DNA of 64,000 bases, taken from NCBI RefSeq assembly GCF_016900045.1, contig NZ_JACSNP010000002.1, positions 1-64,000 of the forward strand, read 5' to 3'. This document shows, piece by piece, positions 11,043-36,909 of the stretch. Under the pieces are notes generated by a model, which saw nothing but the letters and a program-made list of their open reading frames with translations, was not told the origin of the DNA and searched no databases. The DNA is from Fusobacterium mortiferum (GTDB lineage: Bacteria; Fusobacteriota; Fusobacteriia; Fusobacteriales; Fusobacteriaceae). The translations under genes were made by a program, and so were the position numbers. Positions within the stretch are counted from its first letter, which is position 1; each line of letters starts with the position of its first letter.

Positions 11043-11447
11043 ATGACAGTGGCTGAAATGATTCAATATAGAGGAACTGGTAGAAGAAAAACTTCTGTAG
11101 CAAGAGTAAGATTAATTCCTGGAGGAAAAGGAATTGAAATAAACGGAAAAACTATGGCTGACTACTTTGGAGGAAGAGAAATCCTTTCTAAAATAGTTGA
11201 GCAACCTTTAGCTTTAACAGAAACTTTAGATAAATTTGAAGTTAAAGTTAATGTAATCGGAGGAGGAAACTCTGGACAAGCTGGAGCTATCAGACACGGA
11301 GTAGCAAGAGCTTTAATATTAGCTGACGAGACTTTAAAAGGTGCTTTAAAAGAAGCTGGATTCTTAACTAGAGACTCAAGAATGGTTGAAAGAAAGAAAT
11401 ACGGAAAGAAAAAAGCAAGAAGATCTCCTCAATTCTCAAAAAGATAA
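11043..11447 (+). CDS. rpsI: 30S ribosomal protein S9
   Basis: 134 residues, ending in the invariant S9 tail RRSPQFSKR that reaches into the P site. The ATG at 11043 is only 4 bases after GGGGG; a GTG at 11049 would have better spacing. The last 17 coding bases lie within a 72-bp direct repeat repeated at 36838, so an integrative element entered here and left rpsI intact with its own terminator. Confidence 0.96.
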
Positions 11448-11502
11448 TTGCATGGAATTTATATACCTCACAAACTCAATGTTTGTGGGGTTTTTTCTTT
11501 AT
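11431..11502. repeat. Left attachment repeat (attL) over the rpsI end and terminator
   Basis: Identical over 72 bp to 36838-36909. It covers the last 17 bases of rpsI and the terminator hairpin, so recombination anywhere in it regenerates a working gene end. Confidence 0.9.
11465..11497 (+). terminator. rpsI terminator
   Basis: CCTCACAAAC (11466-11475), loop TCAAT, GTTTGTGGGG (11481-11490), then TTTTTT. The same hairpin is present in the right repeat. Confidence 0.92.
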
Positions 11503-11538: not shown

Positions 11539-11568
11539 AGGTAACACACAGGTAACATACAGGTAACA
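11539..11568. repeat. Three phased AGGTAACA sites (integrase/Xis arm-type site candidates)
   Basis: AGGTAACA occurs at 11539, 11550 and 11561, an exact 11-bp period, about 37 bp inside the left repeat. Two more copies with the same period and orientation lie just inside the right end. The stretch 11503-11804 has no gene; besides these sites it holds a hairpin at 11699-11740. Confidence 0.75.
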
Positions 11569-11804: not shown

Positions 11805-12839
11805 TTATTTTATTAACTCTACATTTTTTCTTAATTCTTCAATATCTTTATGAGTATATATTTTTTCAGTTGTAGCATAGCTTTCATGTCCTATCATCTT
11901 CTTAATAGCAGTAGCATTTGCATTAGCATTACTAAGAAGTGTAGCAAAGGTATGACGGCAATCATGAGGTCTATGTTTCATATTTAGTTGCTCCATAATG
12001 GGAATGAATTTTTCTCTGTAGTAGTTATCATACTTCATCTTTTTACCTTTAAAATTAATAATTAGATACTGATTATCTTTATTATATCTCTTTTCAATTA
12101 AAGGTAATATTTTGGGATGAATAGGTACTAATCTATTTTTACCTGCTTCTGTTTTTAATCCTCCAGTCATAGTCATATTAATAAGGTCTATATTCTTAGT
12201 TTCAAGTTCCAGTAATTCTCCTATTCTAAAACCACTATATATCATAATAAGTATAGTATCTATAAATTCAATATCATTTATATGCTTCCATAGTAACTCT
12301 ATCTCTTTATTACTAAATGGCTCTCTCTTACTCTCTTCACTAGATTTTCCAATATCAACAAATTCACTATAATCTTTTGTTATAATATCATTTTGCATAG
12401 CATAGGCAAACATTTGTCCAAATAGAAATTTTATCTTCTTTTTAGTAGCTTGTCCTTTAGAACAGTTATCTATTGCTTCTTGTAAATGTCTAGCTTTAAT
12501 ATCTTTTATTTTCATATTATGAAGCTTTTCAACATTATTATAAGCAGATTGATAACCTAGTATAGCAGAATGACTAACTTTAGGATATTTAAGTTTACTC
12601 CATTTTTCATATACATCTTTAAATAAGATATTTGCCAAATCTAAATCATATGGATTATCTAAATAATCAATCAGAGCCTTTTGAGCTTCTTTTTGTGTAG
12701 CGTATGTTCCTATCAATTTTCTAATTTGTTTTCCTCCCTCTTCCCAACCCAGTGTAATTCGTACCATAAATGGTTTTTTCCTATTTCCCTTAAGTTTTAC
12801 AATACTTCCATTTCCGTTGGCTTTTCTCAATTTTATCAT
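11805..12839 (-). CDS. Tyrosine recombinase (integrase)
   Basis: 344 residues. Domains: an N-terminal AP2-like arm-binding region (about 1-55), a SAM-like core-binding domain (about 60-160) and a C-terminal catalytic domain. Catalytic residues seen are Arg in YSGFRIGELLELE, His-x-x-Arg in HRPHDCRHTFATLLSNA, the GHESYATTEKIYTH segment, and its Tyr. The ATG at 12839 immediately follows AAAGGAG with no spacer; a TTG at 12830 would have a 9-base spacer and is a serious alternative. Located next to attL, as is usual for integrases of integrative elements. Confidence 0.93.
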   Translation of the reverse strand: MIKLRKANGNGSIVKLKGNRKKPFMVRITLGWEEGGKQIRKLIGTYATQKEAQKALIDYLDNPYDLDLANILFKDVYEKWSKLKYPKVSHSAILGYQSAYNNVEKLHNMKIKDIKARHLQEAIDNCSKGQATKKKIKFLFGQMFAYAMQNDIITKDYSEFVDIGKSSEESKREPFSNKEIELLWKHINDIEFIDTILIMIYSGFRIGELLELETKNIDLINMTMTGGLKTEAGKNRLVPIHPKILPLIEKRYNKDNQYLIINFKGKKMKYDNYYREKFIPIMEQLNMKHRPHDCRHTFATLLSNANANATAIKKMIGHESYATTEKIYTHKDIEELRKNVELIK

Positions 12840-12944: not shown

Positions 12945-13154
12945 TTAGATGGCAGTCTGAATAGGCTCTTTTATATTTAGATATTCATATAGTCTAGTAG
13001 CATTGATATAGTATATCCAATGTTTAGACCCTTCTTTTTTGATAGCACTAGCAAACTCTAGAAACTTACCCTGTTGTATAAAGACTCTCAATGTCTGTAC
13101 AGGTAGCCCTAATAATTGAGCTGCTTTTTCAGTTTTTATTCTTTCTGATTTCAT
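12945..13154 (-). CDS. Excisionase-like helix-turn-helix protein
   Basis: A 69-residue basic protein with a MerR-type helix-turn-helix (TEKAAQLLGLPVQTLRVFIQQGKF, here landmark AAQLLGLPVQTLR) of the excisionase DNA-binding kind. Strong RBS GGAGG. Position directly upstream of the integrase supports a recombination directionality factor role. It might also repress the integrase. Confidence 0.75.
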   Translation of the reverse strand: MKSERIKTEKAAQLLGLPVQTLRVFIQQGKFLEFASAIKKEGSKHWIYYINATRLYEYLNIKEPIQTAI

Positions 13155-13211: not shown

Positions 13212-14654
13212 TTATAAAAAATTTATAATTTTAAATTCGCCAGTACTAGCATTATATCCAATATCCTCTCTATTAAGAGTTTTTCCTAAACTAGCTATTA
13301 AAGTTATAAAATTAGTAGAAATATCTTGTGTATAATAAGAAATTGTATAGGGAATAGGTCTAGGAGTACCGGTAGCTAATTCGATAGTATATTTTACTAA
13401 CATATTATAATTCTGTGTAAGAATATTTAATGTTTGTGTAAGAGTGTTGTTAGCTTTTTCTAAATTTTCTATTCTTTCTACTGCTTTTTCTAAAGGTGTC
13501 AAGTTAGAGAACTTAAATTCAAATTTTTTATCTAATATTTCATAAAATCCCTGTAAAATTACATTATATTCTTGACCAGTTTTAATTATAGGAGATATAT
13601 AAGGCTTAATAGTTTGATTATTTATATAATTATTGTATTCGGTTTCGTTCTCTTTAACTCCATATTTATTAATAGCAATCTTATAATATTTAGAAGGATC
13701 TTCTTTTATTTGCACCAAAATTCTATTTGAATAAAAATAAATCTTTTTGATAGTTGAATTTGGTGGTAAATAAAGTGGAACAAAGTTTACTAAAAATTTT
13801 TTTCCATAATCACTATTCCAAAAATTGTGATATTTTCCATTTTCTATATTTAATATAAATTCAGTAAATTCTAATAACTCATTGATATTCTCGTCGGAAA
13901 AATTCTTTTCATATAGTGAAGTAATAAAAAAAGTTATTATTTTTTGTGCTTTTTTTACAAGTCTTGTATTAGAAGTAAATGGGACTTGAATTTTATTATT
14001 TTCTCTAGTTCTATTTTTATCTATAAAATTTTTAATTTCTTCATATGCATCTTCGCTCTCTTTTTCAGTAAGGTTAGAGCTAGAAGTTTTTGTTAAAAGC
14101 CATCCAGGATTCCAAATTAAACGCTCAACCATAGCTTCCTCTCTAAAGAAAATTGGTATATTGCTATAAAAAGTATTACTACTATAACTTAAAGGATCTC
14201 TATCTAATGACTCTTGGAGTGAATCATAGCTATTTCCTACAAAGTAACAAGAGGTAGTTTGTTCAAGTATTTCGCTTCCCCGAGAAAAACTATCCCCATT
14301 TAAATAAGTTTTAAATGAACTCCTTAAGTTAGAATCTATATCTGACTGGGAAAGATTTGAAATTTCATCAATTAAGATTGCTTTATTTTTTTTACAAATA
14401 TAACCATCCATATTTTTATTGAGAGAGCCAAATAATTGTGCAACAGAGAGTGCTTTAACTAGTTCAAAAATCTCGTTGAATCTTTTAGAAATGTATGACT
14501 TTCCAGTATTTGGAGCTCCAAGTTCTATTAGGTGTCCATGCTCTATCAATAAGGGTAAAAATCTCATAAATCTAACTAATATATCTGTAATAGTAAAAGT
14601 TTTGATATCTAATCCTAAAGCCATAAAAAATAGTATCAATAATTCTAAATTCAT
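13212..14654 (-). CDS. BrxL-like AAA+ ATPase lacking the Lon-type protease domain
   Basis: About 480 residues. The N-terminal half carries Walker A ELGAPNTGKS, Walker B AILIDEIS, and then GDSFSRGSEI ... CYFVGNS, which matches the pattern of the BREX protein BrxL. The C-terminal half is not a Lon protease: it has no recognisable Ser-Lys dyad and instead a beta-rich segment and a short coiled coil (about 395-425, rich in L/N/T). The start is the ATG at 14654 with GGAGGAGG upstream; a further upstream ATG at 14672 overlaps the preceding gene. No other BREX gene is in the window. Function unknown: defence, replication or element maintenance are all possible. Confidence 0.65.
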   Translation of the reverse strand: MNLELLILFFMALGLDIKTFTITDILVRFMRFLPLLIEHGHLIELGAPNTGKSYISKRFNEIFELVKALSVAQLFGSLNKNMDGYICKKNKAILIDEISNLSQSDIDSNLRSSFKTYLNGDSFSRGSEILEQTTSCYFVGNSYDSLQESLDRDPLSYSSNTFYSNIPIFFREEAMVERLIWNPGWLLTKTSSSNLTEKESEDAYEEIKNFIDKNRTRENNKIQVPFTSNTRLVKKAQKIITFFITSLYEKNFSDENINELLEFTEFILNIENGKYHNFWNSDYGKKFLVNFVPLYLPPNSTIKKIYFYSNRILVQIKEDPSKYYKIAINKYGVKENETEYNNYINNQTIKPYISPIIKTGQEYNVILQGFYEILDKKFEFKFSNLTPLEKAVERIENLEKANNTLTQTLNILTQNYNMLVKYTIELATGTPRPIPYTISYYTQDISTNFITLIASLGKTLNREDIGYNASTGEFKIINFL

Positions 14655-14655
14655 T

Positions 14656-15288
14656 TTAATTTCCTCCTCCAATTTGTATTTCTAGACTTTTTTCAAAGTA
14701 AAATTTTAAAAAGTTAGCATTAGAAGAATGAGTCAAGTTTATAGTTCCGCATTTAGGGCAAAAAGGCTCTAATCCACCATACATAAAATTTCCACAGTTA
14801 TTACAACTGAGAGGAAATAATAAAGGTCTTAAATGAGAGTAATTTTTAGTAACAATTTTATTATTAAATACCCCTAAATTATTTTCAGAATCTTCAGTAG
14901 ATAATGAGAAGACGTATGGCATAATGTTTCGATTATAAATGGAATACTGATAATAGTTAAAGGGCTCTATATTTTTATCAAAGTTTTGAAAAATTGGCTT
15001 GACAAGAATACCAAAATTTTGATTGAAATAGGGTCTTCTAAATCCCCAAATCTGTATTGGATATTCTTGTAAGATACATCCTATTTGGAATTCAAGAGCA
15101 TTAAGGAAATTACCTTGCCGATTTTTAGCAACCCAAATGGAAGAATAAGAATAATAATTAATATAAATTCGGTTTTCATCTTCTGTATAGGAAAGTTGTG
15201 GATAATATTGTGATAAAATATTAGAAAAAGAAAGTTCACAATTTTGAAAAAGAAAAATAAGTGTAGTGATTAAATCTGTTAAGTTCAT
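14656..15288 (-). CDS. Orphan protein with a C-terminal zinc ribbon, partner of the BrxL-like ATPase
   Basis: 210 residues. A beta-rich, Tyr/Asn-rich N-terminal part is followed by a four-cysteine zinc ribbon (CNNCGNFMYGGLEPFCPKCG, residues about 163-182). One base separates its stop from the start of the ATPase, so the two are translationally linked. I recognise no family. A zinc ribbon next to a DNA-type AAA+ ATPase suggests a nucleic-acid or protein adaptor, which is inference. Confidence 0.6.
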   Translation of the reverse strand: MNLTDLITTLIFLFQNCELSFSNILSQYYPQLSYTEDENRIYINYYSYSSIWVAKNRQGNFLNALEFQIGCILQEYPIQIWGFRRPYFNQNFGILVKPIFQNFDKNIEPFNYYQYSIYNRNIMPYVFSLSTEDSENNLGVFNNKIVTKNYSHLRPLLFPLSCNNCGNFMYGGLEPFCPKCGTINLTHSSNANFLKFYFEKSLEIQIGGGN

Positions 15289-15420
15289 AGAATACCTCCA
15301 AATTAATTTTATATTTTTGTTTCAACTACCTATTATTTCTCATTGCTATTTTGAAGATTTGATGGTATACTAATAATATAGCAAACAAAATATCAATTTA
15401 AAATAAAATATAAGTTTGAA

Positions 15421-15467
15421 ACATATAAACATAATATTTATTATAAATAAACGGTATGTTTATATGT
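15421..15467. promoter_or_regulatory. 13-bp inverted repeat in a divergent promoter region
   Basis: ACATATAAACATA (15421-15433) and its perfect reverse complement (15455-15467) are separated by 21 bp, between genes at 15288 (-) and 15513 (+). A candidate operator; spacing of the half-site centres is 34 bp, close to three helical turns. Confidence 0.5.
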
Positions 15468-15512
15468 ATATTAGCATATTTTTTTATAAAAGTCAAGAGA
15501 AGGGAGTAAAAA

Positions 15513-16766
15513 ATGAAAATATACCTTAAAACAGAGAATATAGAGAAGTTCTTACAAACTAAAGCTTCGCTGGTCAATACAATTGTTGGAGTTGTTACTT
15601 CAGATTCGGATATAGTGAAGATAAAATTAACTAATACAGCAAATTTCGTTGGAAATTTGGCAAATGATAATCTACTGAATGAATGGAATTTACTATATAA
15701 AATTTCGAATTTTACACAATATAAAAAAATAGTTTTAGATATAGATTCTAATATTATTAAATTTTCAGGATACCAATATTTAGATTTGGATATTATTGAT
15801 GACTTAGATCCAGAATTTTATAATGAGATTAAAAAAATTTATTTTAAATTTAATACAGCAGAGCTTGAGTTAAATGAGATTGAAATAAAAAGGAATTGTA
15901 TTGGTGAACTTATAGAAAACTTACATCAAAGATTGGAAAATAATGATAATTTGTATTGGAAATTAAATTTATTAATAGTTTTTGAATACCTGTTCTTATT
16001 TATACAAGAAATGGGAGATGATATTTCCTTAGAAGATTCTTTAAATATAAAGTTAAAAAATATAATAAAAATTCTTTTAAATGAGGAAGAAATAAGTTTT
16101 GAAACTGGATTAAGTAGTCTAGGAAAAGAGTTCTATAATATACTAGATAAGTTATCAAATAACCAAACTTATGATTTAAAATTTATTTTTTTATCTTCAC
16201 CTTTAAGAGAAAAAGAATGGTTTTTATATAATTTATTAAAAAAGATGAAATCAGAGATTGGGAATGAGTTCTTGGCAAAATCTAGTAATAGAATGAAAAT
16301 CAGTTACTTTCACACACATAAAGATAATAGAAAGCCAACATATGATTTTATTTTTGGATTTTTAAATACATTAGATAATAATGCAAAAAAAGATGAATAC
16401 TTAAATTTTTTTAATAGATTTAATGAAGTAAATAGTTTTTTAGCAGCAGTATCAAAGGAAAATATATTAATAAATATTAATACTTTTTTTTCTTATCGTC
16501 AAACAATTCCAGGATTTTATTTAGATATGAGTGAGTTTTATATTGATATTCTTATTCCTATGTCAGATAATTTTAATATTAATTTAAGATTTGGATGCTC
16601 AGGTGATTTAAATAATCAAACACCATATTCAAGAGTAGGATTATTCACTTATAATCCTCAGATAGAACAATACTCATTAAATGCATTATATAGAACTCCT
16701 AATATGTTACCTCCAGTTGGTTTAAATCAAGCATATTATATTATAAAATGGATAACTATAGTATAA
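15513..16766 (+). CDS. Hypothetical protein of unknown function
   Basis: 417 residues, no signal peptide or clear membrane segment. The middle (about 100-300) is predicted helical and charged; the last 120 residues are beta-rich and Asn/Tyr-rich (for example FNINLRFGCSGD). It is divergent from the ATPase/zinc-ribbon pair and separated from it by an inverted repeat. Very A/T-rich, like its neighbours. RBS AGGGAG. I recognise no domain. Confidence 0.55.
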   Translation: MKIYLKTENIEKFLQTKASLVNTIVGVVTSDSDIVKIKLTNTANFVGNLANDNLLNEWNLLYKISNFTQYKKIVLDIDSNIIKFSGYQYLDLDIIDDLDPEFYNEIKKIYFKFNTAELELNEIEIKRNCIGELIENLHQRLENNDNLYWKLNLLIVFEYLFLFIQEMGDDISLEDSLNIKLKNIIKILLNEEEISFETGLSSLGKEFYNILDKLSNNQTYDLKFIFLSSPLREKEWFLYNLLKKMKSEIGNEFLAKSSNRMKISYFHTHKDNRKPTYDFIFGFLNTLDNNAKKDEYLNFFNRFNEVNSFLAAVSKENILININTFFSYRQTIPGFYLDMSEFYIDILIPMSDNFNINLRFGCSGDLNNQTPYSRVGLFTYNPQIEQYSLNALYRTPNMLPPVGLNQAYYIIKWITIV

Positions 16767-16784
16767 ATATATATTATAAAATGT

Positions 16785-16812
16785 AAAAAGATTCCTATGG
16801 GAATCTTTTTTA
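16785..16812 (+). terminator. Terminator
   Basis: AAAAAGATTCC and GGAATCTTTTT form an 11-bp stem with a TATG loop, followed by more T. It separates the orphan gene from the recombination/anti-restriction gene block. Confidence 0.85.
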
Positions 16813-16838
16813 TTTTATATAATAGAGGATGTGATAGT

Positions 16839-17333
16839 ATGAAAGCTTATGAGATTAAAAATGCGATGATTGATACTTTGGATATATTTTTAGAGAGCAA
16901 CCAAGATGAGATGGACAAAGAGAACTATGATGATGTGATGGAGTATTTGAGAGAGGAATTAGAGAGCAAGAGTTCAAATATAGTGAGATACATTAGAAAC
17001 TTAGAGCTAGAGAATATAGTAGCTAAAACAGAGATAGATAGATTGGAGGAACTTAAGAAAAGTAGAGAGAAGAAAATAACTTCATTGAAAGGGTATATCA
17101 AAGGAATCCTATTAGAACTAGATAAAAAGAAGATTGAAACAGATTTAGGAAATCTTAGCTTGAGAAAAACTACGAGTGTAGAGATAATTGATTTATCTAA
17201 GATACCTAAAGAATACTTAACAGTAAAAGAGGAAGTAACACCATCTAAGAAGTTGATAGGAGATTGTCTTAAGAAAAATATAGCAGTTAGTGGAGCTATG
17301 CTTAGAGAGGACTATTCATTACAAATTAAATAG
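16839..17333 (+). CDS. Siphovirus Gp157-like protein (host-nuclease inhibitor type)
   Basis: 164 residues from the ATG at 16839 (MKAYEIKNAM), chosen because AGAGG lies just upstream and a longer start would run into the terminator. The long central coiled coil (about 45-100) followed by a lysine-rich segment and a short beta/LRKT..EIID tail with IPKEYL matches the phage Gp157 pattern. Such proteins are found beside single-strand annealing genes in phages and plasmids and are annotated as Gam-like nuclease inhibitors. Here it heads a co-directional block with ArdC-like and Rad52-like genes. Confidence 0.75.
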   Translation: MKAYEIKNAMIDTLDIFLESNQDEMDKENYDDVMEYLREELESKSSNIVRYIRNLELENIVAKTEIDRLEELKKSREKKITSLKGYIKGILLELDKKKIETDLGNLSLRKTTSVEIIDLSKIPKEYLTVKEEVTPSKKLIGDCLKKNIAVSGAMLREDYSLQIK

Positions 17334-17346
17334 GGGGAATAATAAT

Positions 17347-18192
17347 ATGGAAAATAAAGAGTTTATGAGCATTATAGATGGACTAAAAGAGAATATAAAT
17401 GATAAAATAAAAGATTTCTTAGAGAACTCACAAGAGCTAAAGGACTTCATAGAATTTAGGAGAAAGAACTTTTATCACTATAGTATTAGAAATAATATCT
17501 TAATCTATAAGCAAGATAAGACAGCGACCATGATAGCTAGTTTTAAAAGATGGAAAGAACTTGGGTATAATATTAAAAAGGGAGCTAAAGCCATTCATAT
17601 ATTAGTACCACTTATCAGTAAGAAAGTAGTTGATGGAAAAGAAGAGCAATATGTCTATGGATATAAATATGCTAATGTATTTGATATTAAAAGTACTATT
17701 CCTACTGATAAAGCAGTAGCTGTTCCAGAGATTGACACTAGGATGAAGCGAGGGGATAGTAAATATAAGATAACTGAATTATTTAAAAAATCTAAGGAAA
17801 TAGTAGAGCAGTATCTTCCAGTTAATATAGTTAAAGAACTTTATGCTAAAGGTTGTACTGATGGAAATACCATTACACTTAGAAAAGATAGATATGTAGC
17901 TATGAGTGGAACTCTTATGCATGAGTTTACTCATTATCTAAATCATTTTGGAGAAAATACTAAAAGTCAAAATCAAGATGAAGTAGAAGCAGAGATAGGA
18001 GCCATGTTATATGGTTCCTATTTTAATTTGGACATAAGTGGGAAGTATAAGTACATAGCCTTATGGAAAAGTAAGGATGTAAGACTAGATGAAGCATTTG
18101 ATGTAGCTCTATCATCATTTGAAGAGTTGCTATATGGAAGTATTGATAAAAAAGGATTGATAGATTTAATTGAAGGAAAAGAGGAGGAATAA
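17347..18192 (+). CDS. ArdC-like antirestriction protein with zinc metallopeptidase domain
   Basis: 281 residues from the ATG at 17347 (RBS GGGGG). The N-terminal ssDNA-binding ArdC domain shows YHYSIRNNILIY and ASFKRWKELGYNIKKGAKAI. The C-terminal zincin has the metal site MHEFTHYLNH and a downstream acidic segment with Glu (EVEAEIGAML). ArdC proteins coat incoming single-stranded DNA and protect it from restriction during mobile element entry. The presence next to Gp157-like and Rad52-like genes is a standard plasmid/phage context. Confidence 0.85.
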   Translation: MENKEFMSIIDGLKENINDKIKDFLENSQELKDFIEFRRKNFYHYSIRNNILIYKQDKTATMIASFKRWKELGYNIKKGAKAIHILVPLISKKVVDGKEEQYVYGYKYANVFDIKSTIPTDKAVAVPEIDTRMKRGDSKYKITELFKKSKEIVEQYLPVNIVKELYAKGCTDGNTITLRKDRYVAMSGTLMHEFTHYLNHFGENTKSQNQDEVEAEIGAMLYGSYFNLDISGKYKYIALWKSKDVRLDEAFDVALSSFEELLYGSIDKKGLIDLIEGKEEE

Positions 18193-18505: not shown

Positions 18506-18799
18506 ATGAGAACTATATTTATGACACCACTAATAAGACATGATTTAGATGTAAGAGCATTACTAATGGTAGTATCAGCTATAAGGTTAAAAGAGGAAAG
18601 AGAGGAAGCTCAAGGATTAGACCCATTTCAGATATTTGAGTTCAAAGATAAAAAGATGATTAATAGACAGGAAGAACCACAGGATAAAAGAGAATTTGAC
18701 CTAAGCTATGAAGTTAAAGATTGTAAAGTATGGGCAGTACTAGGATTAGATGAAACATTTGGAGAATACTGGACTATTATGTTTCCAAGCGAATATTAA
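18506..18799 (+). CDS. DUF960-like small protein
   Basis: 97 residues. The order of FMTPLI at the N-terminus, DPFQIFEF, a NRQEEPQ segment, and a C-terminal VWAVL...YWTIMFPSEY resembles the DUF960 family found on Gram-positive plasmids and phages; function unknown. RBS AAAGGAG. It sits in the same block, 14 bp after the previous gene. Confidence 0.55.
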   Translation: MRTIFMTPLIRHDLDVRALLMVVSAIRLKEEREEAQGLDPFQIFEFKDKKMINRQEEPQDKREFDLSYEVKDCKVWAVLGLDETFGEYWTIMFPSEY

Positions 18800-18815
18800 A
18801 AGGAGGATTGAGAGT

Positions 18816-19451
18816 ATGGATAAGTTATTAGAAAAATTAAGAGAACCATTTGCTAGAGAGGAATTAGAATTTAGAGTTGGAGTAGTAAATAAGGATAAAA
18901 TGGAGGGATTGGCTCTTGCTTATGTACAAGCAAGAGCTATTCAAAATAGATTAGATGAGCTATTTGGAATAGATGGATGGACTGTAGCATATAGAGAAGT
19001 ATCAGCAGGATTTATTTGTTCTCTATCTATCAAAATTAATGATAGATGGATAACCAAAGAAGATGGAGCCAGTATGACAGAGTATGAAAGTATAAAAGGG
19101 GGAATATCTAATGCTTTTAAAAGAGTGGCAAGTAGTGGATTTGGAATAGGAAGATATTTATATAAAGCTAAGAATAGATGGTATCCAGTAAGACAGCAAG
19201 GAAAAGGATATGTATTTACAGTAGAGCCAGAGTTAGAACTTGAAGATAATCAATTAACATTTAAAAAGTTAGAAGCAGAGAAAGACGAACCTAAGGTAGT
19301 AGGAAGTACTAAGATAGTAATAGAGTTTGGAAAATACAAAGGAATGACACTACAAGAGATTTATGAGAAAGACATTAATTACATCAAATATCTAAGAGCT
19401 AATGCCAAAGATAAGAAAATATCACAAGCATGTGCAGAAATGATAGCTTAA
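18816..19451 (+). CDS. Rad52-like single-strand annealing protein
   Basis: About 211 residues from the ATG at 18816 (AGGAGG upstream). Residues 1-130 fit the Rad52/Rad22 DNA-annealing domain: LALAYVQARAIQNRLDE, GWTVAYREV, and GGISNAFKRVASSGFGIGRYLY. The last 50 residues form a second module (FGKYKGMTLQEIYEKD) like that at the C-terminus of some exonuclease X-type proteins. The gene would repair or recombine element DNA after single-strand transfer or replication. An upstream in-frame ATG at 18750 overlaps the previous gene and lacks an RBS. Confidence 0.8.
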   Translation: MDKLLEKLREPFAREELEFRVGVVNKDKMEGLALAYVQARAIQNRLDELFGIDGWTVAYREVSAGFICSLSIKINDRWITKEDGASMTEYESIKGGISNAFKRVASSGFGIGRYLYKAKNRWYPVRQQGKGYVFTVEPELELEDNQLTFKKLEAEKDEPKVVGSTKIVIEFGKYKGMTLQEIYEKDINYIKYLRANAKDKKISQACAEMIA

Positions 19452-19462
19452 TGGGAGATATT

Positions 19463-19723
19463 ATGGAGAGATATATTCAATTATTTAAAGAATACAGAAT
19501 TATAAGGAAAAATCTATTAGAGAGATTTGAAAAACAGGTAAAGGAAATTATAGAAGAGTTAAAGTTCTATACTGATGTTATGGTTTATTTGAAAGATAAT
19601 AAAGAAATAGATTTTGAAAGAATATCTTCATTATCTACAATTTATTACCTATATAAAATGAATAGAAGAAAATATCCAAAGGTAGAAATATACTTAGAAA
19701 ACTATTTTAGAAGGGAGAATTAA
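19463..19723 (+). CDS. Tandem paralogue A, small helical protein
   Basis: 86 residues from the ATG at 19463 (GGGAG five bases upstream; an ATG at 19451 overlapping the previous stop is the alternative). It shares with the next two proteins a pattern of EY near the start, KFYTDVMVYL in the middle, and a LSTIYYLY-type segment. Predicted all-helical and charged. Function unknown. Confidence 0.65.
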   Translation: MERYIQLFKEYRIIRKNLLERFEKQVKEIIEELKFYTDVMVYLKDNKEIDFERISSLSTIYYLYKMNRRKYPKVEIYLENYFRREN

Positions 19724-19724
19724 A

Positions 19725-20009
19725 ATGAAGAATTATCAAAAGTTACTAGATGAGTATATAGTATTTGAAAAGGAAACCTTAGAAAAAGATAGTAGAGAAG
19801 TTTATTCTATGGCAGAACAGATAAAATTCTATAATGATGTTATGAATTATCTTGAGTATGGAGATATAAAGGTAAGAGATTTAGAAAAGATAAAATCACT
19901 TAAGGACTTATATTACTTCTATATGGAAAGTGATGACTATATTGTAGGAAGATTTGAAGATACACAAAATCTCATAGAAGCATATATAAAAAGAATGGAG
20001 GGTAATTAA
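19725..20009 (+). CDS. Tandem paralogue B, small helical protein
   Basis: 94 residues, with LLDEYIVFEKE, IKFYNDVMNYLEYG and LKDLYYFYMES marking the same three-block pattern as its neighbours. It begins one base after gene A's stop and its last base is the first of the next start, so A, B and C are translationally coupled. Function unknown. Confidence 0.7.
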   Translation: MKNYQKLLDEYIVFEKETLEKDSREVYSMAEQIKFYNDVMNYLEYGDIKVRDLEKIKSLKDLYYFYMESDDYIVGRFEDTQNLIEAYIKRMEGN

Positions 20010-20269
20010 TGGATAGATTAACAGAGGAATATTTAAAATTTAAAAGTTCAATATTAGCACTAAATAAGGAAGAGATATTTGAAAGAGCATTTAAAATAGT
20101 ATTCTATAATGAGATTTATAGATACTTCAAAAATACTGGAGCTAAAGTTGATAAGGATATGAGTATAGTTAGTCTATATAACTTTTACATTAAGTATGAA
20201 AGTTTAAATGTAAATAATATTGAAGATATAGCAAAGTTTTTAAATGTATATAGAAAATATGTAGCATAA
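20009..20269 (+). CDS. Tandem paralogue C, small helical protein
   Basis: 86 residues. LTEEYLKFKSS, KIVFYNEIYRYFKN and IVSLYNFYIKYE repeat the pattern of paralogues A and B. ATG overlaps B's stop codon (TAATGG). The three look like products of local duplication that have diverged strongly. Function unknown. Confidence 0.65.
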   Translation: MDRLTEEYLKFKSSILALNKEEIFERAFKIVFYNEIYRYFKNTGAKVDKDMSIVSLYNFYIKYESLNVNNIEDIAKFLNVYRKYVA

Positions 20270-20428: not shown

Positions 20429-20950
20429 ATGAAAAAGATATTAAAGTTTTTAAAATGTAAAGATAAAGAGGAAGTTATATATAAAATGAGAAGTTACGAA
20501 GGAACACAAGAGATAGAGGAACTAAAAGAACTTATACACTACATCAGCAAAGAAGGAATAAAAAGAAGAGATTTAACTACTATAAAGAATAAAGAGAACC
20601 TTCTTGAGTTTTTAAAGATAAATCTCTCTCCAAGACATAATGAGGAGTTTAAAATATTATTTCTAAATAATGCTAATAAACTGATAGCTGAAAAGACACT
20701 ATTCTATGGAACTATAGATAAATCAGCAGTATATCCAAGAGTAGTATTAGAAGAGGTATTGAGATATAACTCTGCAGGGGTAATACTAGCACATAACCAC
20801 CCAAGTGGAAATCTTAGACCAAGCAAACAAGATATACAACTGACAGAAGCACTTCAAGAACTATTAGAAAAGATAAATGTAATGGTACTAGACCATGTGA
20901 TAATAGGGGATGATGAGTATTTTAGTTTTAGAGAAGAAGGACTAATTTAG
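20429..20950 (+). CDS. RadC-family JAB-domain protein
   Basis: 173 residues. The metal-binding JAMM motif is intact: HNHPSGNLRPSKQD, with the upstream Glu in the VLEEVLRYNS region. The helix-hairpin-helix domain of chromosomal RadC is missing or reduced, as in most mobile-element copies. The family's biochemical role is unsettled. It has its own RBS (GGAGG) after the terminator. Confidence 0.85.
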   Translation: MKKILKFLKCKDKEEVIYKMRSYEGTQEIEELKELIHYISKEGIKRRDLTTIKNKENLLEFLKINLSPRHNEEFKILFLNNANKLIAEKTLFYGTIDKSAVYPRVVLEEVLRYNSAGVILAHNHPSGNLRPSKQDIQLTEALQELLEKINVMVLDHVIIGDDEYFSFREEGLI

Positions 20951-30243: not shown

Positions 30244-30414
30244 ATGGCTAGAGGCGGTAAAAGAGAAAATAGTGGAAGAAAAAAAATAGAAGGTAAAAAG
30301 GTAAAAGTGATATTAGATAAAGATATCATACTTAAAATTAATGAAAATATTACTGGAAAAACATTTTCTGAAAAAATAAGAAAATGTTTAGAGAAAGGAT
30401 TGAATGATGATTAG
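30244..30414 (+). CDS. Small RHH-like protein heading the restriction operon
   Basis: 56 residues with RBS AAAGGAG. Basic N-terminus (MARGGKRENSGRKK) followed by KVKVILDKDIILKI and TFSEKIRKCLEKGL, the strand-helix-helix pattern of ribbon-helix-helix DNA-binding proteins. Its last 11 bases overlap the methyltransferase start. A small regulator as first gene recalls the C proteins of restriction-modification operons, which delay the nuclease; this function here is inference. Confidence 0.65.
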   Translation: MARGGKRENSGRKKIEGKKVKVILDKDIILKINENITGKTFSEKIRKCLEKGLNDD

Positions 30415-32104
30415 GTTAGGAACAGTATTTAGTGGTGTAGGAGCAATAGAACATGCTTTTAAAAGATTAAATTTGAAACATAAAATTATCTTTGCATGTG
30501 ATAATGGTGGTGTAGATATTTTTGGGAAGAAAATTGGAGATAATTTTTTAGAAATTGATGAAGAAATTATCTATCTAGATAAAATAATTAAAAATTTAAA
30601 CATTCCAAATTTTGAAGAATATATAGATAAATTAAAAAATGATTTAAAAAGTTTAATTGTAGAAGTTTCCAACTTAAAAATCAATTTTTTAAGTAGAGAT
30701 ATAGATATACAAGAAATAAAAGAACAATTAAAATTAGTTTTTGAAGAAATAGATTTTACTGATATAAAAGAATTTAAAAAGTTTATTCCTTTAGAAAATC
30801 AAGATATTTCAAATGTTTTAATATTAGTTAATGAACTAGAGAAATATATAACTAAAAATTTTATAGATAATCATTTTTTAAAAGAAAAAGCTGAATATTT
30901 AAAAAAAGTTACTGAGAATAAAGAATATCGTAAAATGAGAAGAGAAATTAAAGAAATTCCTAAAAAACTTTCAGAATTACATTCAACAATAAAAACATTA
31001 GAAGTCCTTTCGGAATTGAGTAAAATCAATGAGTATGAAGAGAAAAAAAGATATATTGATTCATTGTATTCATCAAAAGAAAATTCCAATTTTGTAAAGA
31101 AATCATATGTAGCAAATTACGAGATTCAAGATAAAGACTTTCATTGGAATGTTTCTTTTTTAGATGGTAATCAATACAAAGGGCAAGTTGATTTGTTTGT
31201 TGGAGGAAGTCCATGTCAATCATTTTCTATGGTGGGAAAAAGAAAGGGATTTGAAGATACTAGAGGAACTTTATTTTATGAATTTGTAAGAATTTTAAAA
31301 GAAGTAGAGCCAAAATTTTTTATATATGAAAATGTACAAGGAGTTTTAAGCCATGATGGTGGACAAACTTGGGAAATTATGCAAAATTCTTTTAGAGAGG
31401 CAGGATATTATTTTAAATATTATGTTCTAAATGCTAAAAATTTTGGAATTCCTCAAAATAGAAATAGAATTTTTGTAGTTGGAGCTAAAAATGAAGAAGA
31501 TTTTAAAAAGTTTGGTTCTCCACAAGAAATAGAATTAGAATTAACTTTATCGAACTTTTTAGAAGATACAATTGAAAATAAATATTTTTTGCCTGAAAAA
31601 GGAATAAAATTTGTAACAGATCCAAAAAATTTAGATAAACAATATACTCAGATTAATGGGAAAATTGCTCTTTGTCAAAAAGCAAACCAACAATTTAACT
31701 GGCATGGAGATTTTATTGAGTATTATAGTGAAAATGAGTTAGAAAGAATTTCTAAAATAGACCAAAAATATTTCTTATCAGATAAAGTAAAAAATTATGT
31801 ACTTTCAGAAGAAGATTCTTTAATAAAACCAGAGGTTGATTTAAAAATAGCAAGACCATTAACTGCTACAATGCACAAGATGCATCGTGCAGGTGTTGAT
31901 AATTATATTAGTTATGGGAAGAATTTGCCTTTAGAAAAAAGAAAAATAAGAAAGCTTACTCCAAGAGAATGTTTTAGACTTATGGGATTTAGTGATGATT
32001 TTAAAATAGTTGTTTCTGATACTCAAGCATATCAACAGGCGGGAAATTCAATAGTAGTTGATATTTTAATTAATCTTTTGGAAAATGTTTTTAAATTTTA
32101 TTAA
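30404..32104 (+). CDS. C5-cytosine DNA methyltransferase with a large helical insertion
   Basis: 566 residues. Motif I FSGVGAIEHAF (about 8-18), motif II HKIIFACD, motif IV GGSPCQSFS (catalytic Cys at about 271), motif VI IYENVQG, motif VIII PQNRNRIFVVG, and motifs IX/X RKLTPRECFRLMGF and QAGNSI. About 180-190 residues of Lys/Glu-rich helical sequence are inserted between motifs II and IV, where most relatives have only 40-60. It is first of a three-gene tail (methyltransferase, McrB-like, McrC-like) and would protect host DNA. Confidence 0.92.
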   Translation: MMIRLGTVFSGVGAIEHAFKRLNLKHKIIFACDNGGVDIFGKKIGDNFLEIDEEIIYLDKIIKNLNIPNFEEYIDKLKNDLKSLIVEVSNLKINFLSRDIDIQEIKEQLKLVFEEIDFTDIKEFKKFIPLENQDISNVLILVNELEKYITKNFIDNHFLKEKAEYLKKVTENKEYRKMRREIKEIPKKLSELHSTIKTLEVLSELSKINEYEEKKRYIDSLYSSKENSNFVKKSYVANYEIQDKDFHWNVSFLDGNQYKGQVDLFVGGSPCQSFSMVGKRKGFEDTRGTLFYEFVRILKEVEPKFFIYENVQGVLSHDGGQTWEIMQNSFREAGYYFKYYVLNAKNFGIPQNRNRIFVVGAKNEEDFKKFGSPQEIELELTLSNFLEDTIENKYFLPEKGIKFVTDPKNLDKQYTQINGKIALCQKANQQFNWHGDFIEYYSENELERISKIDQKYFLSDKVKNYVLSEEDSLIKPEVDLKIARPLTATMHKMHRAGVDNYISYGKNLPLEKRKIRKLTPRECFRLMGFSDDFKIVVSDTQAYQQAGNSIVVDILINLLENVFKFY

Positions 32105-32121
32105 TATAGGAGAGATATATT

Positions 32122-34299
32122 ATGAGTCCAATGGCAAGAGTTAAAAATTTTTCCTTACAAACATTAAAGGAATTTTTAACATTATATAAAGAAGAATATT
32201 ATAATCAGAATTTACAAGAAATTTATCCAATTATAGAAGCTGAAAGAAAAGGATATGGAAAAAGTCATTATCAATTAGCAGAACAATTCGGAATCGTTTT
32301 TCATGATAAAGATAATAATATTTTTAGATTTCATAAATACTTAAAGCAGAAAAATGAAGATGAACTTAAATTATTTTTAAATTTTTGGTTTTCTGTATAC
32401 TATGCACCAAATTATAGAATGCCTCGTTATGAGAAACCAATGATATTTTATTATGAAATTTTAAAAATTCTTCTTAAAAGAAAAAATATTCCAATTTCAT
32501 ATAAAGAGTTAACTGAACTATTGGCTATTACAGGGAATGAAGATATTTTTTTTAATAGTCTAAAAGAAAGTAGTTTATTTCTAAATGTAAGTAAAGAGCA
32601 AATCCAAATAGAAGAAAATTCTATAAATAAAGCAATAGCTTTAAAAAAATTTATTGAAACTGAATTTGAAATACCAATTTACTATGGTGATAGCAAACTT
32701 TTTTATAATAGATTCTCTGAAGAGAATTACAATAAATTTATTGATGAGTTAAATTTTATTTGTCTTGAAACCAATGAAATTCAATCTAAAAACAAAAATT
32801 ATCAAAAAATAGTATATGGAGCTCCAGGAACTGGGAAAAGTTATAGTTTAAATCAAGAAGCTAAAGAAACTTTTAAAAGAGAAATATTATTAGAAAAATT
32901 TTCAGATGAGATTTCTACAAAAAAATATTGGATTGTTACTTGTGGAGAAAATAACTGGGCATTTGAAGAATTTAAAAGACAAGGGATTTATTCAATAGGT
33001 TGGGAAGCGATTAAAAATATTTCTAAATTGACATATGCACAATTAGAAAAAGAAGTAGTAGAAAAATATAATAATAAATTTGGTGCTACTCAATTAAATA
33101 ATATAGCTCATGAAATGAAAGTTGGAGATATTCTTTTGGTAAGAAAAGGAGTTAAAAATAAAGAAATTGTTGGATATGGGGTAATTTCCCAAGAGCATTA
33201 TGAAGAGGAAGTTAAGGATAATACTGGGAAAAAAGTAAGTGATTTCTATCATAATATAGGAGTAGATTGGAAAGAGTTTTCTCCTACTAAATTAGAAGAG
33301 TATCCTAAATATTTTCAAAGAATTACTACATATAAAGCTAATCCAGAGTTAATAAAAGAGTTTGAAAAAATTTATCCTCAAGAAACACCTTCTAAATTTG
33401 ATACTAAAGAAGTTTCTACTATTGAAAGAGTTACTTTTTATGATGGATATACATATGGGCAATTTGTGGGGATGTATAAACCTATAACTTTAGATAATGG
33501 AGATATTAGTTACGAATATGTTCCAGGACCATTTATGAAGCAATTAGTCTTAGCATATAAAAACTCTAAGGATAAATTTTGTTTATTAATTGAAGAGATA
33601 AATAGAGCTAAAGCAGATAAAGTATTTGGAAATATATTTCAATTGTTAGATAGAAATAGTCAAGGAGAAAGTGAGTATCCTATTTCAGTATCTAAAGAAC
33701 AATATAAATATTTAAAAGAGCATTTAGAGGAAGAAGAAGATATTTTAGAAAGAATAGAAAATGAAGGATTGTACTTACCAAATAATTTATATATATGGGC
33801 AACTATGAACTCAGCTGATGATGGAGTTCAACCTTTAGATACTGCATTTAAAAGAAGATGGAAATTTAATTATATTAGTTTAAATGCTAATGAAGGAAAT
33901 TTTGGAAATGGAGAAACTTTTATTATTGGACAATATAAAGATAAAGATATACTATGGAATGAGTTTAGAACTACTTTAAATGATACATTAAAAGCTAATA
34001 TAACAGAAGATAGACTTATAGCTCCTTTCTTTATATCTCCAAATGATTTTGAAGAAATAGATACAAGTATCAAAAAAATAGATAAAAATATTTTATCTGA
34101 AAAGGTTTTAATGTATATTTTCGATGATTTATTAAGACACTATCCTAAATTAAGAAAGGAGATATTTCATAATGATGTAAAAACTTTTTCTGATATTCAT
34201 GAAAAGGTTACTGAAAATGAGAACTTTTTAGAATTAATATTTAATGAAGGCTTCCTTAGTCAGATATTAGGTAGTGATGGAATTGATGGAAAAGATTAA
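32122..34299 (+). CDS. McrB-like AAA+ restriction ATPase with an internal EVE/PUA-like domain
   Basis: 725 residues. An N-terminal unknown domain (about 1-220) precedes Walker A YGAPGTGKSYS (about 232-242). Then comes an EVE/PUA-like domain (about 266-400: KKYWIVTCGENNWAFEEF, GDILLVRKGV, IVGYGVI). The ATPase resumes with TFYDGYTYGQFVGMYKP (about 436), Walker B CLLIEEINRA (about 490), and WATMNSADDGVQPLDTAFKRRW, the McrB sensor/arginine-finger region. Placement of an EVE-like fold between Walker A and the FxxxYxYxxFxxxxxP block is unusual. GTP or ATP use cannot be told. Confidence 0.85.
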   Translation: MSPMARVKNFSLQTLKEFLTLYKEEYYNQNLQEIYPIIEAERKGYGKSHYQLAEQFGIVFHDKDNNIFRFHKYLKQKNEDELKLFLNFWFSVYYAPNYRMPRYEKPMIFYYEILKILLKRKNIPISYKELTELLAITGNEDIFFNSLKESSLFLNVSKEQIQIEENSINKAIALKKFIETEFEIPIYYGDSKLFYNRFSEENYNKFIDELNFICLETNEIQSKNKNYQKIVYGAPGTGKSYSLNQEAKETFKREILLEKFSDEISTKKYWIVTCGENNWAFEEFKRQGIYSIGWEAIKNISKLTYAQLEKEVVEKYNNKFGATQLNNIAHEMKVGDILLVRKGVKNKEIVGYGVISQEHYEEEVKDNTGKKVSDFYHNIGVDWKEFSPTKLEEYPKYFQRITTYKANPELIKEFEKIYPQETPSKFDTKEVSTIERVTFYDGYTYGQFVGMYKPITLDNGDISYEYVPGPFMKQLVLAYKNSKDKFCLLIEEINRAKADKVFGNIFQLLDRNSQGESEYPISVSKEQYKYLKEHLEEEEDILERIENEGLYLPNNLYIWATMNSADDGVQPLDTAFKRRWKFNYISLNANEGNFGNGETFIIGQYKDKDILWNEFRTTLNDTLKANITEDRLIAPFFISPNDFEEIDTSIKKIDKNILSEKVLMYIFDDLLRHYPKLRKEIFHNDVKTFSDIHEKVTENENFLELIFNEGFLSQILGSDGIDGKD

Positions 34300-35683
34300 T
34301 CATAAAAATATAGAATATATTAGAGAATTATCAAGGTTTGATAATTCGGAATTAATTTCAGAATTAGAGTCCACAAATATATTAAAGTATGATTCAAAGA
34401 ATGAAAATCATTATTTCCAATATGTTGGGTTGATAGGATTAAAAGATGGAAGAATACTATCTATTCTTCCTAAATGTATCTCAGAAGATATATTAAATGA
34501 TAAGGATGAATGTATCCAATACACTAAAAATATTCTTAATGCAATAGAAAAATATAATCATAAAAGATTTGATAATACCTTTATTTATAATTTGGATATT
34601 GAAAAAGAAGAAAAGAATTTTAATCTTTTTGCACTATATGATTTTCTTATAGTAGATTATTTAGAATATGGACTTTATAGAGAAACGAAAGAAGTTTATG
34701 AAGAAAATGGAGATAGTGAAATTGACTGGGAACATACTTTAGAGGTTGAAACTGGATATATTACTAAGAAAAAACAACCAGTCTATTTAAATTATCATAA
34801 TATAACTACGATTGATAATAATAACAATCTTATTCAAGAAGTTCATAAATTTTTATTAAATAGAGCTAGTTCTTACTTTCAAGAGATTTCATTTTTTATA
34901 GATTCTAAACCAATATTAGATTTTTATTGTAAAATTGATATTGGAGTTGAAAATCAAGATAAAATCATATATTTAATTGAAAAGGTATTAAGAAGAACTT
35001 TTAATCAAAGAAAGATAAGACTTTTAAATTTGTTACTGTTGATATTAAGAAAAAATTTACATTCTCAGCAGAATGGAATTAATTTATATGGGATAACTAA
35101 TTTTCATTCTGTTTGGGAAGACATGTGTAAAGTTTTATTTGATAATTCTTATCTTGATGGTAGTAAGTATAAAGAGGTTATTAGGGAATTAACTGCTCCT
35201 CGATATGTACTAAATAAAGAACTTCAAGGTAAAAAAGATGGAAATCCATTAATCCCTGATGTTGTTACTAAATATAAAGATACATTTTTTGTTATTGATG
35301 CCAAATATTATAATATATCAATTCAAAGTTCAGAAAATGATGATGAGATAACTAACGATATTGAAATTAATGATAATGAGAATACTCAGCTAGATAAATT
35401 ACAAGGATTTTTACCTGGAACTTATGATGTTTTAAAACAGATAATATATATGGAAGCCTTTTTAAAGGAAAAAGAAAAACTAGGAATAAATGATAAAAAA
35501 GTAAAGAATATATTTATTATTCCTGGTACTGAAGATAGATTTATTGGAAAAGTTGGAATGGAATTATTTTTAGAAAAAGATATCGAGTTATGGCTAATGG
35601 ATATAAAACAAGCATTGGATTTTTATTTAAAAAATAAAACTAATACAAAGTTACTAGATACTATTTTATTAGATAACATCTAG
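34286..35683 (+). CDS. McrC-like PD-(D/E)XK nuclease subunit
   Basis: About 465 residues. The N-terminal part is the McrC/LlaJI type (GLIGLKDGRILSILPKCIS). The catalytic PD-(D/E)XK site is IPDVVTKYKDTFFVIDAKYYN (given as landmarks PDVV and DAKYY). It overlaps the McrB-like gene; ATG 34286 (MEKINHK) is my choice, with GTG 34274 and ATG 34277 possible. It would form the cutting subunit with the McrB-like motor. Ends before a terminator at 35694. Confidence 0.87.
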   Translation: MEKINHKNIEYIRELSRFDNSELISELESTNILKYDSKNENHYFQYVGLIGLKDGRILSILPKCISEDILNDKDECIQYTKNILNAIEKYNHKRFDNTFIYNLDIEKEEKNFNLFALYDFLIVDYLEYGLYRETKEVYEENGDSEIDWEHTLEVETGYITKKKQPVYLNYHNITTIDNNNNLIQEVHKFLLNRASSYFQEISFFIDSKPILDFYCKIDIGVENQDKIIYLIEKVLRRTFNQRKIRLLNLLLLILRKNLHSQQNGINLYGITNFHSVWEDMCKVLFDNSYLDGSKYKEVIRELTAPRYVLNKELQGKKDGNPLIPDVVTKYKDTFFVIDAKYYNISIQSSENDDEITNDIEINDNENTQLDKLQGFLPGTYDVLKQIIYMEAFLKEKEKLGINDKKVKNIFIIPGTEDRFIGKVGMELFLEKDIELWLMDIKQALDFYLKNKTNTKLLDTILLDNI

Positions 35684-35691
35684 TGAAGATA

Positions 35692-35724
35692 AAAATACCA
35701 CAATCAAATTTAGTGGTATTTTTT
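35692..35724 (+). terminator. Terminator of the restriction operon
   Basis: AATACCAC (35694-35701) and GTGGTATT (35713-35720) then TTTT. It separates mcrC-like from the EVE-HNH gene, which has its own TATAAT-like box near 35735. Confidence 0.8.
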
Positions 35725-35772
35725 AATTTACCATGTTATAATAAAATCATAAAATATATAAAGGGAGTTATA

Positions 35773-36741
35773 ATGAAAAAGGGAAAAATTAATTATACAG
35801 GTTATTGGATATTTATGAATAATCCAAATAATTGGGAGTTGGATAGGTTTTTGGAAGATAACATAGGTAATATAGGATTAAAATTAGCTTGGACTTTACC
35901 AGAATGGCAAAAAGATAAATTCAATGTAGGTGAATATGGTATTTTTAGAATAGGGAAAGATAGGAGAAATAAAGAACAATTAGCAGGAAGAAAAAAATTA
36001 GAATCGGGAGTTTATGCAATAGGAAAAGTTATAACTTTACCTCGCTTAAAAGATAAGGAGGAGATTTGGGATAACGAGTATAATATAAATAAAGAAAGCA
36101 GTTATCTAAAAAGTTATTATTGTATAGATATAGAGATTATAGCTAATTTAGTAAAAAAGCCTTTAATATTTAATGAAATTAGGAATATACAAGAAATAGA
36201 GGAGGATAGTTATTTAATACCAGGATTTCAAAGTGCAACTATTCCATTATCTAAAGTAGCTTTTGATAAAATATTAGAGTTAGCTAAAATTAATAAAAAT
36301 AAGGATGTAATTGAAATTTCTGATTCTTTAAAAGATATAGAGAGTTTAGATTTAATAGGAGATGAAAGAGAAACACTTATAAAATCAAGAATAGGACACT
36401 CTAAATTTAAAGAGTTATTAAAGTTAGAAAATCACTATTGTCCTATTTGTGGACTAAATAATTCTTCTCTTTTAATAGCAAGTCATATAAAACCTTGGAG
36501 TAAATCAGATAGTAAAGAGAAAGTTGATATAGATAATGGAATTTTATTTTGTCCTAATCATGACTATCTTTTTGATAAAGGATTAATTTCATTTGATAAT
36601 GAAGGGCAAGTATTAATTTCATCTTTATTAAGCCAAGAAGATAAAATAATTTTGGGAATAAAAGAAAGTATAAAAATAAACTTATCTGAAAAAAAGAAAA
36701 AATATTTAGAGTGGCATAGAAAAAATATTTATAAGAAATAA
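35773..36741 (+). CDS. EVE-like domain fused to HNH endonuclease
   Basis: 322 residues from the ATG at 35773 (GGGAG upstream). The N-terminal EVE-like domain begins GYWIFMNNPNNWEL and has VGEYGIFRIGKD and GVYAIGKVI. The C-terminal HNH_2-type nuclease shows CPICGLNNSSLLIASHIKPW (zinc and HNH first His) and NGILFCPNHDYLFDKG. EVE domains read modified bases; with an HNH nuclease this is a typical modification-dependent restriction design. It lies at the right end of the element, after the restriction operon, as an independent unit. Confidence 0.85.
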   Translation: MKKGKINYTGYWIFMNNPNNWELDRFLEDNIGNIGLKLAWTLPEWQKDKFNVGEYGIFRIGKDRRNKEQLAGRKKLESGVYAIGKVITLPRLKDKEEIWDNEYNINKESSYLKSYYCIDIEIIANLVKKPLIFNEIRNIQEIEEDSYLIPGFQSATIPLSKVAFDKILELAKINKNKDVIEISDSLKDIESLDLIGDERETLIKSRIGHSKFKELLKLENHYCPICGLNNSSLLIASHIKPWSKSDSKEKVDIDNGILFCPNHDYLFDKGLISFDNEGQVLISSLLSQEDKIILGIKESIKINLSEKKKKYLEWHRKNIYKK

Positions 36742-36782: not shown

Positions 36783-36801
36783 AGGTAACATATAGGTAAC
36801 A
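36783..36801. repeat. Two phased AGGTAACA sites near the right end
   Basis: AGGTAACA at 36783 and 36794, 11 bp apart, same orientation as the three copies at 11539-11568. Candidate arm-type sites for the integrase. Confidence 0.7.
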
Positions 36802-36837: not shown

Positions 36838-36909
36838 AATTCTCAAAAAGATAATTGCATGGAATTTATATACCTCACAAACTCAATGTTTGTGGGGTTT
36901 TTTCTTTAT
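36838..36909. repeat. Right attachment repeat (attR)
   Basis: Perfect 72-bp copy of 11431-11502, including the last 17 bases of rpsI and its terminator hairpin. Divergence begins on both sides at the next base. Confidence 0.9.

Follow-up and report, generated by a model that had tools for sequence, protein, structure and literature searches.

In the 2026 survey of BREX, BrxL is treated as specific to BREX types 1 and 4. These proteins combine the AAA+ domain PF13337 with the N-terminal domain PF20442, end in a Lon/HKD C-terminus and are covered by the NCBIfam model TIGR02688. Their ATPase domain has been described as belonging to the MCM family (PMC10164562, PMC12839542), and helicase activity has not been demonstrated even for BREX BrxL (PMC10164562). 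Integrative plasmids and prophages of bacteria can encode MCM-like helicases, and those described are tied to archaeo-eukaryotic primases (PMC5862659). In pattern 1 of SCCmec, the small ssDNA-binding protein LP1413 is followed by the MCM-like helicase Cch and then by the recombinases; Cch and Cch2 have been argued to make SCCmec replicative, and in SCCmec LP1413–Cch–ccr and SaPI Rep a small protein, an MCM-like helicase and a recombinase share one operon of an integrative element (PMC7581432). The 'Lon-like' ATPases of rudiviruses and lipothrixviruses are recorded as predicted Lon proteases (PMC4124505).

Here we describe a BrxL-type ATPase encoded on an integrative element of Fusobacterium mortiferum. 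The window, 64,000 nucleotides of contig NZ_JACSNP010000002.1, contains a 25.4-kb island at the 3' end of rpsI, lying between two perfect 72-nt direct repeats. The left, attL-like copy (11431..11502) covers the 3' end of rpsI, whose stop is at 11447, and the terminator. The attR-like copy at the right end of the element (36838..36909) is 100% identical to it. The same-species genome G149 has a single att copy (71/71) at rpsI with the right-flank gene directly after it, and thus an empty site. The repeats at the end of a conserved gene, the empty site in a relative and a tyrosine integrase identify the island as an integrative element, in agreement with the original prediction.

The integrase (344 aa; 11805..12839, minus strand) matches phrog_1 (integrase, E=3e-60) and an XerA-type NCBIfam model (E=2e-26). 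Adjoining it is a gene for a small, excisionase-like helix-turn-helix protein of 69 aa (12945..13154, minus strand), which matches phrog_6058 (E=3e-11) and, weakly, the excise model TIGR01764 (E=0.07), and has a 99% identical copy in genome G010. Three AGGTAACA direct repeats with 11-nt spacing are found at the left end (11539..11568, plus strand) and two, equally spaced, at the right end (36783..36801, plus strand). These five, out of seven occurrences in the window, are at the inner margins of the element ends; shuffled sequences hold 1.7 on average, and none of 100 shuffles reaches seven. Judging from this repeat count, they are probable integrase arm-binding sites.

Within the genus, the 3' end of rpsI serves as a hot spot for integration. 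At this site, G010 (C1:46110-86254; L060, L019, L020) has three full or partial att copies, with an island of metabolic genes followed by a window-like element, and G009 (C3:115061-125350; L059) has a 10-kb remnant in which only the end of the integrase gene is left. The G010 integrase (L019 11991-13018) is frameshifted, its first 95 residues being 81% identical to those of the window's integrase and the remainder 97%, as in a recombinant or decayed gene.

The genes of the element are divergently arranged. One strand carries, in this order, a small partner gene, the ATPase, the excisionase-like gene and the integrase. Upstream of the partner lies an AT-rich divergent intergenic region of 19% GC (15289..15512), a candidate promoter or origin region. 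The opposite (plus) strand begins with a 417-aa protein (15513..16766) that has no assigned function and is related to a protein of the G030 element (31% over 181 aa, E=7e-11). It is followed by a backbone composed of a Gp157 family protein (16797..17333; PF05565, E=4e-35), an ArdC-type antirestriction protein (17290..18192; PF08401, E=2e-7; phrog_7245, E=3e-11), an Erf/Rad52 single-strand annealing protein (18750..19451; phrog_1097, E=1e-42; PF04098, E=6e-15) and a RadC-like JAB protein (20429..20950; PF04002, E=2e-42), with two small proteins between ArdC and Erf. Lipoproteins, an AAA/PD-(D/E)XK protein and the cargo complete this strand, the latter being an LlaJI-type restriction-modification cluster (30404..36741) with a C5 methylase, a McrB-like AAA protein, an LlaJI/McrC-like nuclease and an EVE-HNH protein. 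After Erf (19430-20269) there are two or three small, similar-looking tandem genes (86-97 aa, weak DUF3848 matches), the number of which varies between elements. The protein at 27800-29431, with AAA-ATPase_like and PDDEXK_9 domains, has counterparts in a number of related elements (G010, G009, G051, G149).

The ATPase open reading frame, as called, runs from a TTG at 14672 to 13212 on the minus strand and encodes 486 aa. An ATG at 14654 and a Shine-Dalgarno sequence inside the 3' end of the partner gene are both visible in ...aaattggaggaggaaattaaaATG..., and GGAGGAGG is located within the last codons of the partner gene, ahead of this ATG. The ATPase is therefore most likely a protein of 480 aa (13212..14654), starting one base past the partner's stop, which confirms the position and strand first given for both genes.

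In domain profile searches, the ATPase matches PF13337 (BrxL_ATPase) with E=5.4e-24 and 85 bits, the cut-off being 25. It also matches the PADLOC BrxL model (E=3e-16) and, in a sequence search of the PDB, the BrxL structures 8EMC (E=1e-7) and 8EMH. The score against TIGR02688 is far under the equivalog cut-off (E=8e-22, only 78 bits, cut-off 329). On these sequence matches, the protein is therefore a real but divergent BrxL-type ATPase, and a chance match is excluded.

It is, however, not a BREX BrxL. Four defining features were tested; the PF13337 domain is present and the other three fail, namely BrxL_N, the NCBIfam cut-off and a BREX locus with PglZ and BrxC. BrxL_N (PF20442; a helix-turn-helix and an OB fold) is absent from the ATPase, which has fewer than 20 residues ahead of the PF13337 match; two positive controls, the BrxL proteins of L021 and L018, both match PF20442. 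The neighbours of the ATPase are the integrase and recombination genes, and PglZ (PF08665) is found nowhere in the window's genome by a search that finds it in two BREX-bearing relatives. The original prediction had correctly placed the ATPase outside any BREX locus; it had not noticed that the N-terminal half of BrxL is missing.

An alignment shows that Walker A G57/K58, Walker B E103, sensor-1 N147, R184 and R237 are common to element and BREX ATPases. The AlphaFold (AF2) model of the ATPase is confident for approximately residues 10-350. Foldseek comparison of this model with the PDB returns BrxL first (E=7e-15 to about 1e-14) and MCM2-7 subunits next (E=4e-6), so that the BrxL relationship originally proposed is also supported at the level of the predicted fold. 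In the viral library, the best matches are the 'Lon-like' ATPases of SIRV9 (435 aa) and AFV2 (ORF425), with E about 3e-8. These proteins, of the SIRV ORF440 group and AFV2, are likewise found outside BREX, but they come from archaeal linear viruses and are only 16-17% identical. The modelled protein combines an AAA+ fold closest to BrxL and MCM with a complete active site, the features of an MCM-clade helicase.

Directly after the ATPase domain, residues 288-351 form a confidently modelled alpha-beta-beta-beta-alpha module, which is not found in BREX BrxLs. The Lon-type half had been described as replaced by a beta/coiled-coil part. Domain profile searches give no Lon match and the module contains the beta structure; the coiled coil is unproven because most of residues 355-486 are modelled with pLDDT <50. 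Leave-one-out profiles recovered the module in six element proteins, including that of the window, and marginally in L093; it was not recovered in L095 and L097. The latter two have about 165 residues ahead of the ATPase, like type-4 BrxL, yet without a BrxL_N match. The window ATPase thus shares the AAA+ domain, catalytic residues and predicted fold of BREX BrxL, but differs in both termini, in its element-specific C-terminal module and in its linkage to integrases instead of BREX genes.

The partner is a protein of 210 aa (14656..15288, minus strand), delimited by its ORF call and start region, and its 3' end holds the ATPase ribosome-binding site. It ends in a CxxC...CxxC ribbon, as had been noted, with the motifs at residues 162 and 177. 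Its AF2 model has a mean pLDDT of 38, too low to use. The idea of the partner as a split-off BrxL_N domain found no support in any similarity.

We sought relatives in whole genomes of 98 species-level Fusobacteriota (one per species, two for the window's species), using a protein query followed by growing profiles. Element-type ATPases were found in ten of them, with 16-28% identity except for one copy at 94%; G010 carries a copy of the window element at the same rpsI site, 94-99% identical. These ATPases usually lie beside a tyrosine integrase (also G036/L034, G056/L057 and G046/L091) or a serine recombinase (G057/L058, G030/L093, G149/L095 and G029/L097); in G051/L092, a resolvase-type gene is located some kilobases away. 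A small partner gene of the same orientation immediately precedes the ATPase in nine loci; in the tenth, L092, it lies downstream. A large uncharacterised protein of 417-644 aa is encoded divergently from the ATPase wherever the contig reaches, except in L092, and Erf, Gp157 and RadC come next in most loci.

The zinc-ribbon partner is found only in the window and in the G010 copy (99% identical). Seven other partners were compared; they have no CxxC and are not convincingly related to that of the window (best L093, E=0.002). By this sequence comparison, the zinc ribbon is peculiar to the window's element, and the partners in the same slot elsewhere are unrelated. The proposal of a conserved pair of ATPase and zinc-ribbon protein is therefore not upheld. 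Among the outcomes set beforehand as speaking against the original prediction, the pair is indeed not conserved together and the fold is like that of a replicative helicase, yet the BrxL relationship stands.

The same searches recovered fusobacterial BrxLs of 460-480 and 670-760 aa that form a separate set with BREX architecture; those examined adjoin large PglZ/BrxC-like genes. Among the genomes that carry an element-type ATPase, nine lack PglZ and the tenth, G010, has one borderline match elsewhere. Tree analysis neither establishes a single clade for the nine element ATPases nor rejects one (AU p=0.36). A subset of seven clusters with support of 73/77; the tree is unreliable owing to its long branches.

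Both the ATPase and the integrase frames are broken in G010. Together with the sequence relationship to BrxL, the broken ATPase copy would fit a decayed or captured brxL, left over from a degraded BREX locus and carried along by the island with no present function. We regard this as highly improbable, as the catalytic residues are kept across great divergence, the frames of eight distant relatives, in equivalent positions, are intact and no other BREX gene lies near any relative.

Because the loci had been found through the ATPase itself, Erf was used as an independent anchor; 14 genomes qualify with a strong match (E at most 1e-50). Element-type ATPases are present in 10 of these 14 and in 0 of the 84 others (Fisher p=7e-11, a count that ignores phylogeny), with ATPase and Erf on different contigs in G036 and G046. 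BREX-type BrxL shows no such association (1/14 against 10/84, p=1). Four genomes have the Erf backbone without an element-type ATPase, so the ATPase is not universal in Erf-backbone elements; no replacement replication gene could be named in these four. In G016, an Erf backbone gene is located near ParA and two uncharacterised proteins on an 8.5-kb contig (C224, L103), and the Erf recombination backbone may thus also occur on a plasmid.

Pairwise comparison separates core from cargo. The G010 copy retains the ATPase of the window element and has other genes in place of the restriction cluster, the reverse of the behaviour expected of defence cargo. Between the window and an element in the same-species genome G149, the stretch from Gp157 to RadC is 84-92% identical in DNA, whereas the integrase, the ATPase (22% over 109 aa), the partner and the divergent gene are all replaced. 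The left end is therefore exchanged as one module, comprising the integrase and the BrxL-type ATPase in these elements. The G149 sibling element (L095/L096, C16 about 65400-89300), with a serine recombinase, a near-same backbone and a different integrase/ATPase module, lies next to smpB and probably beside or in the tmRNA gene. The ATPase is a core gene tied to the integrase and backbone of this element family, in a recombinase-linked module as for a mobile-element helicase of the MCM clade, and the restriction genes at the opposite end are exchangeable cargo.

These observations bear on the proposal of an undescribed defence or replication module. A two-gene anti-phage system, in which the ATPase would load on phage DNA like BREX BrxL, with the zinc-ribbon protein providing recognition and phage replication being blocked, is favoured by the fact that the only characterised homologues are BREX BrxLs. 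Sibling elements differ in ATPase and partner through rapid turnover, as an arms race would also produce, and the island itself carries restriction cargo. However, the ATPase sits at the integrase end and is exchanged together with the integrase, is strictly associated with the Erf backbone and is retained by elements with quite different cargo; moreover, BREX BrxL does not act alone, and nine of the ten genomes have no PglZ. We consider a defence role of the pair improbable, and this half of the proposal is not supported, while the replication half stands.

In its gene context, the window ATPase appears to resemble most the MCM-clade helicases of mobile elements. As on the integrative plasmids and prophages, an MCM-clade ATPase is found on an integrated bacterial element, although no primase was recognised here. 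The order of small protein, helicase-like ATPase and recombinase resembles that of SCCmec, with differences in the ATPase (PF13337 here, DUF927 in Cch), in the recombinases (tyrosine or serine integrases here, ccr there) and in the origin repeats, none of which were found in the window element; a relationship between the partner and LP1413 is not claimed. From the BrxL/MCM likeness, the occurrence of MCM-like helicases on mobile elements and the SCCmec-like gene order, we infer that this BrxL-type ATPase of the MCM clade acts as a helicase for replication, or for maintenance after excision, of the element (probability roughly 0.58), with the partner as its cognate accessory.

The excisionase-like protein and the integrase would excise the element in circular form. 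The ATPase, aided by its small co-translated partner, which may be a loader, an ssDNA-binding protein or an origin-recognition factor, would form a ring at the origin of the element and unwind this DNA, allowing host polymerases to copy the circle. The Erf and Gp157 proteins would anneal and protect ends, and the integrase would put the circle back at rpsI.

The helicase reading is favoured by the gene content of the element, in which domain and phrog profile searches recognised no primase, DnaB, Rep, relaxase or capsid gene. The ordered operon between the att repeats, the linkage of the ATPase to integrases of either family and to the Erf backbone, the replacement of the left-end module in G149 and the BrxL/MCM-like fold favour it as well. 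It is disfavoured by the intergenic regions, where no iterons or other origin signature were found and short repeats are no commoner than in shuffled sequence. Not every origin has iterons, so their absence weakens this reading without excluding it. Further points against it are the four Erf-backbone genomes that lack the ATPase, the broken frames of the G010 copy, the lack of an extrachromosomal form in the plasmid and phage collections, and the undemonstrated helicase activity of BREX BrxL itself.

The exchange of the ATPase together with the integrase also counts against the helicase reading, since a role in excision or integration would fit it too. The ATPase could then be an accessory of site-specific recombination or transfer, either an AAA+ remodeller aiding the integrase or a motor moving DNA into a capsid or conjugation channel. 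Its position nearly always beside the integrase and the lack of a recognisable origin agree with such a role. Nevertheless, the ATPase is found alongside both tyrosine and serine integrases, which are unrelated to each other and neither of which is known to require an AAA+ partner, and after BrxL its fold is closest to MCM helicases. We therefore judge an accessory role unlikely, and retain replication helicase as the preferred reading.

Beyond the phylum, about 290 genomes sampled by profile gave only BREX-like matches, as judged by match extent. In phage and plasmid collections, the ATPase finds, among the matches listed, only BREX BrxL or BrxL-like proteins and no element-type relative, and no extrachromosomal form of the element was seen in them. 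Two phage records from human faeces labelled 'Bacteriophage sp.' (MT835963.1 and MT835511.1; L017, L018) look like pieces of bacterial chromosome with a BREX type 4-like gene order. Scans of IMG/VR and genome contigs with short exact peptides, which distant relatives could escape, returned nothing. Plasmids of Leptotrichia wadei that encode an integrase of 71% similarity are circular, phage-like molecules with no annotated ATPase of this kind.

Since the survey limits BrxL to BREX types 1 and 4 and we found no paper on BrxL-like proteins outside BREX in the open-licence literature, integrative elements with a BrxL-type ATPase among their core genes appear not to have been described within that literature. 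The part of BrxL in BREX defence is unsolved, although the MCM likeness of its ATPase was noted before, and elements that carry a BrxL-type ATPase without BREX offer a simpler system for testing whether this fold unwinds DNA. The wiring of such ATPases to integrases also suggests where BREX may have acquired BrxL. Tentatively, BrxL-type ATPases might form an undescribed class of MCM-like replication helicases of integrative elements with interchangeable small loaders, from which BREX borrowed its BrxL; if so, the phage block of BREX would be the work of a replication helicase taken from mobile elements. The loci described here define a family of islands in Fusobacteriota that swap their replication or excision module en bloc. 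In Fusobacteria, a type of protein known only from a bacterial anti-virus system is encoded in the core of a family of mobile islands, beside the integrase, and most likely aids the copying of the island and not defence against viruses.
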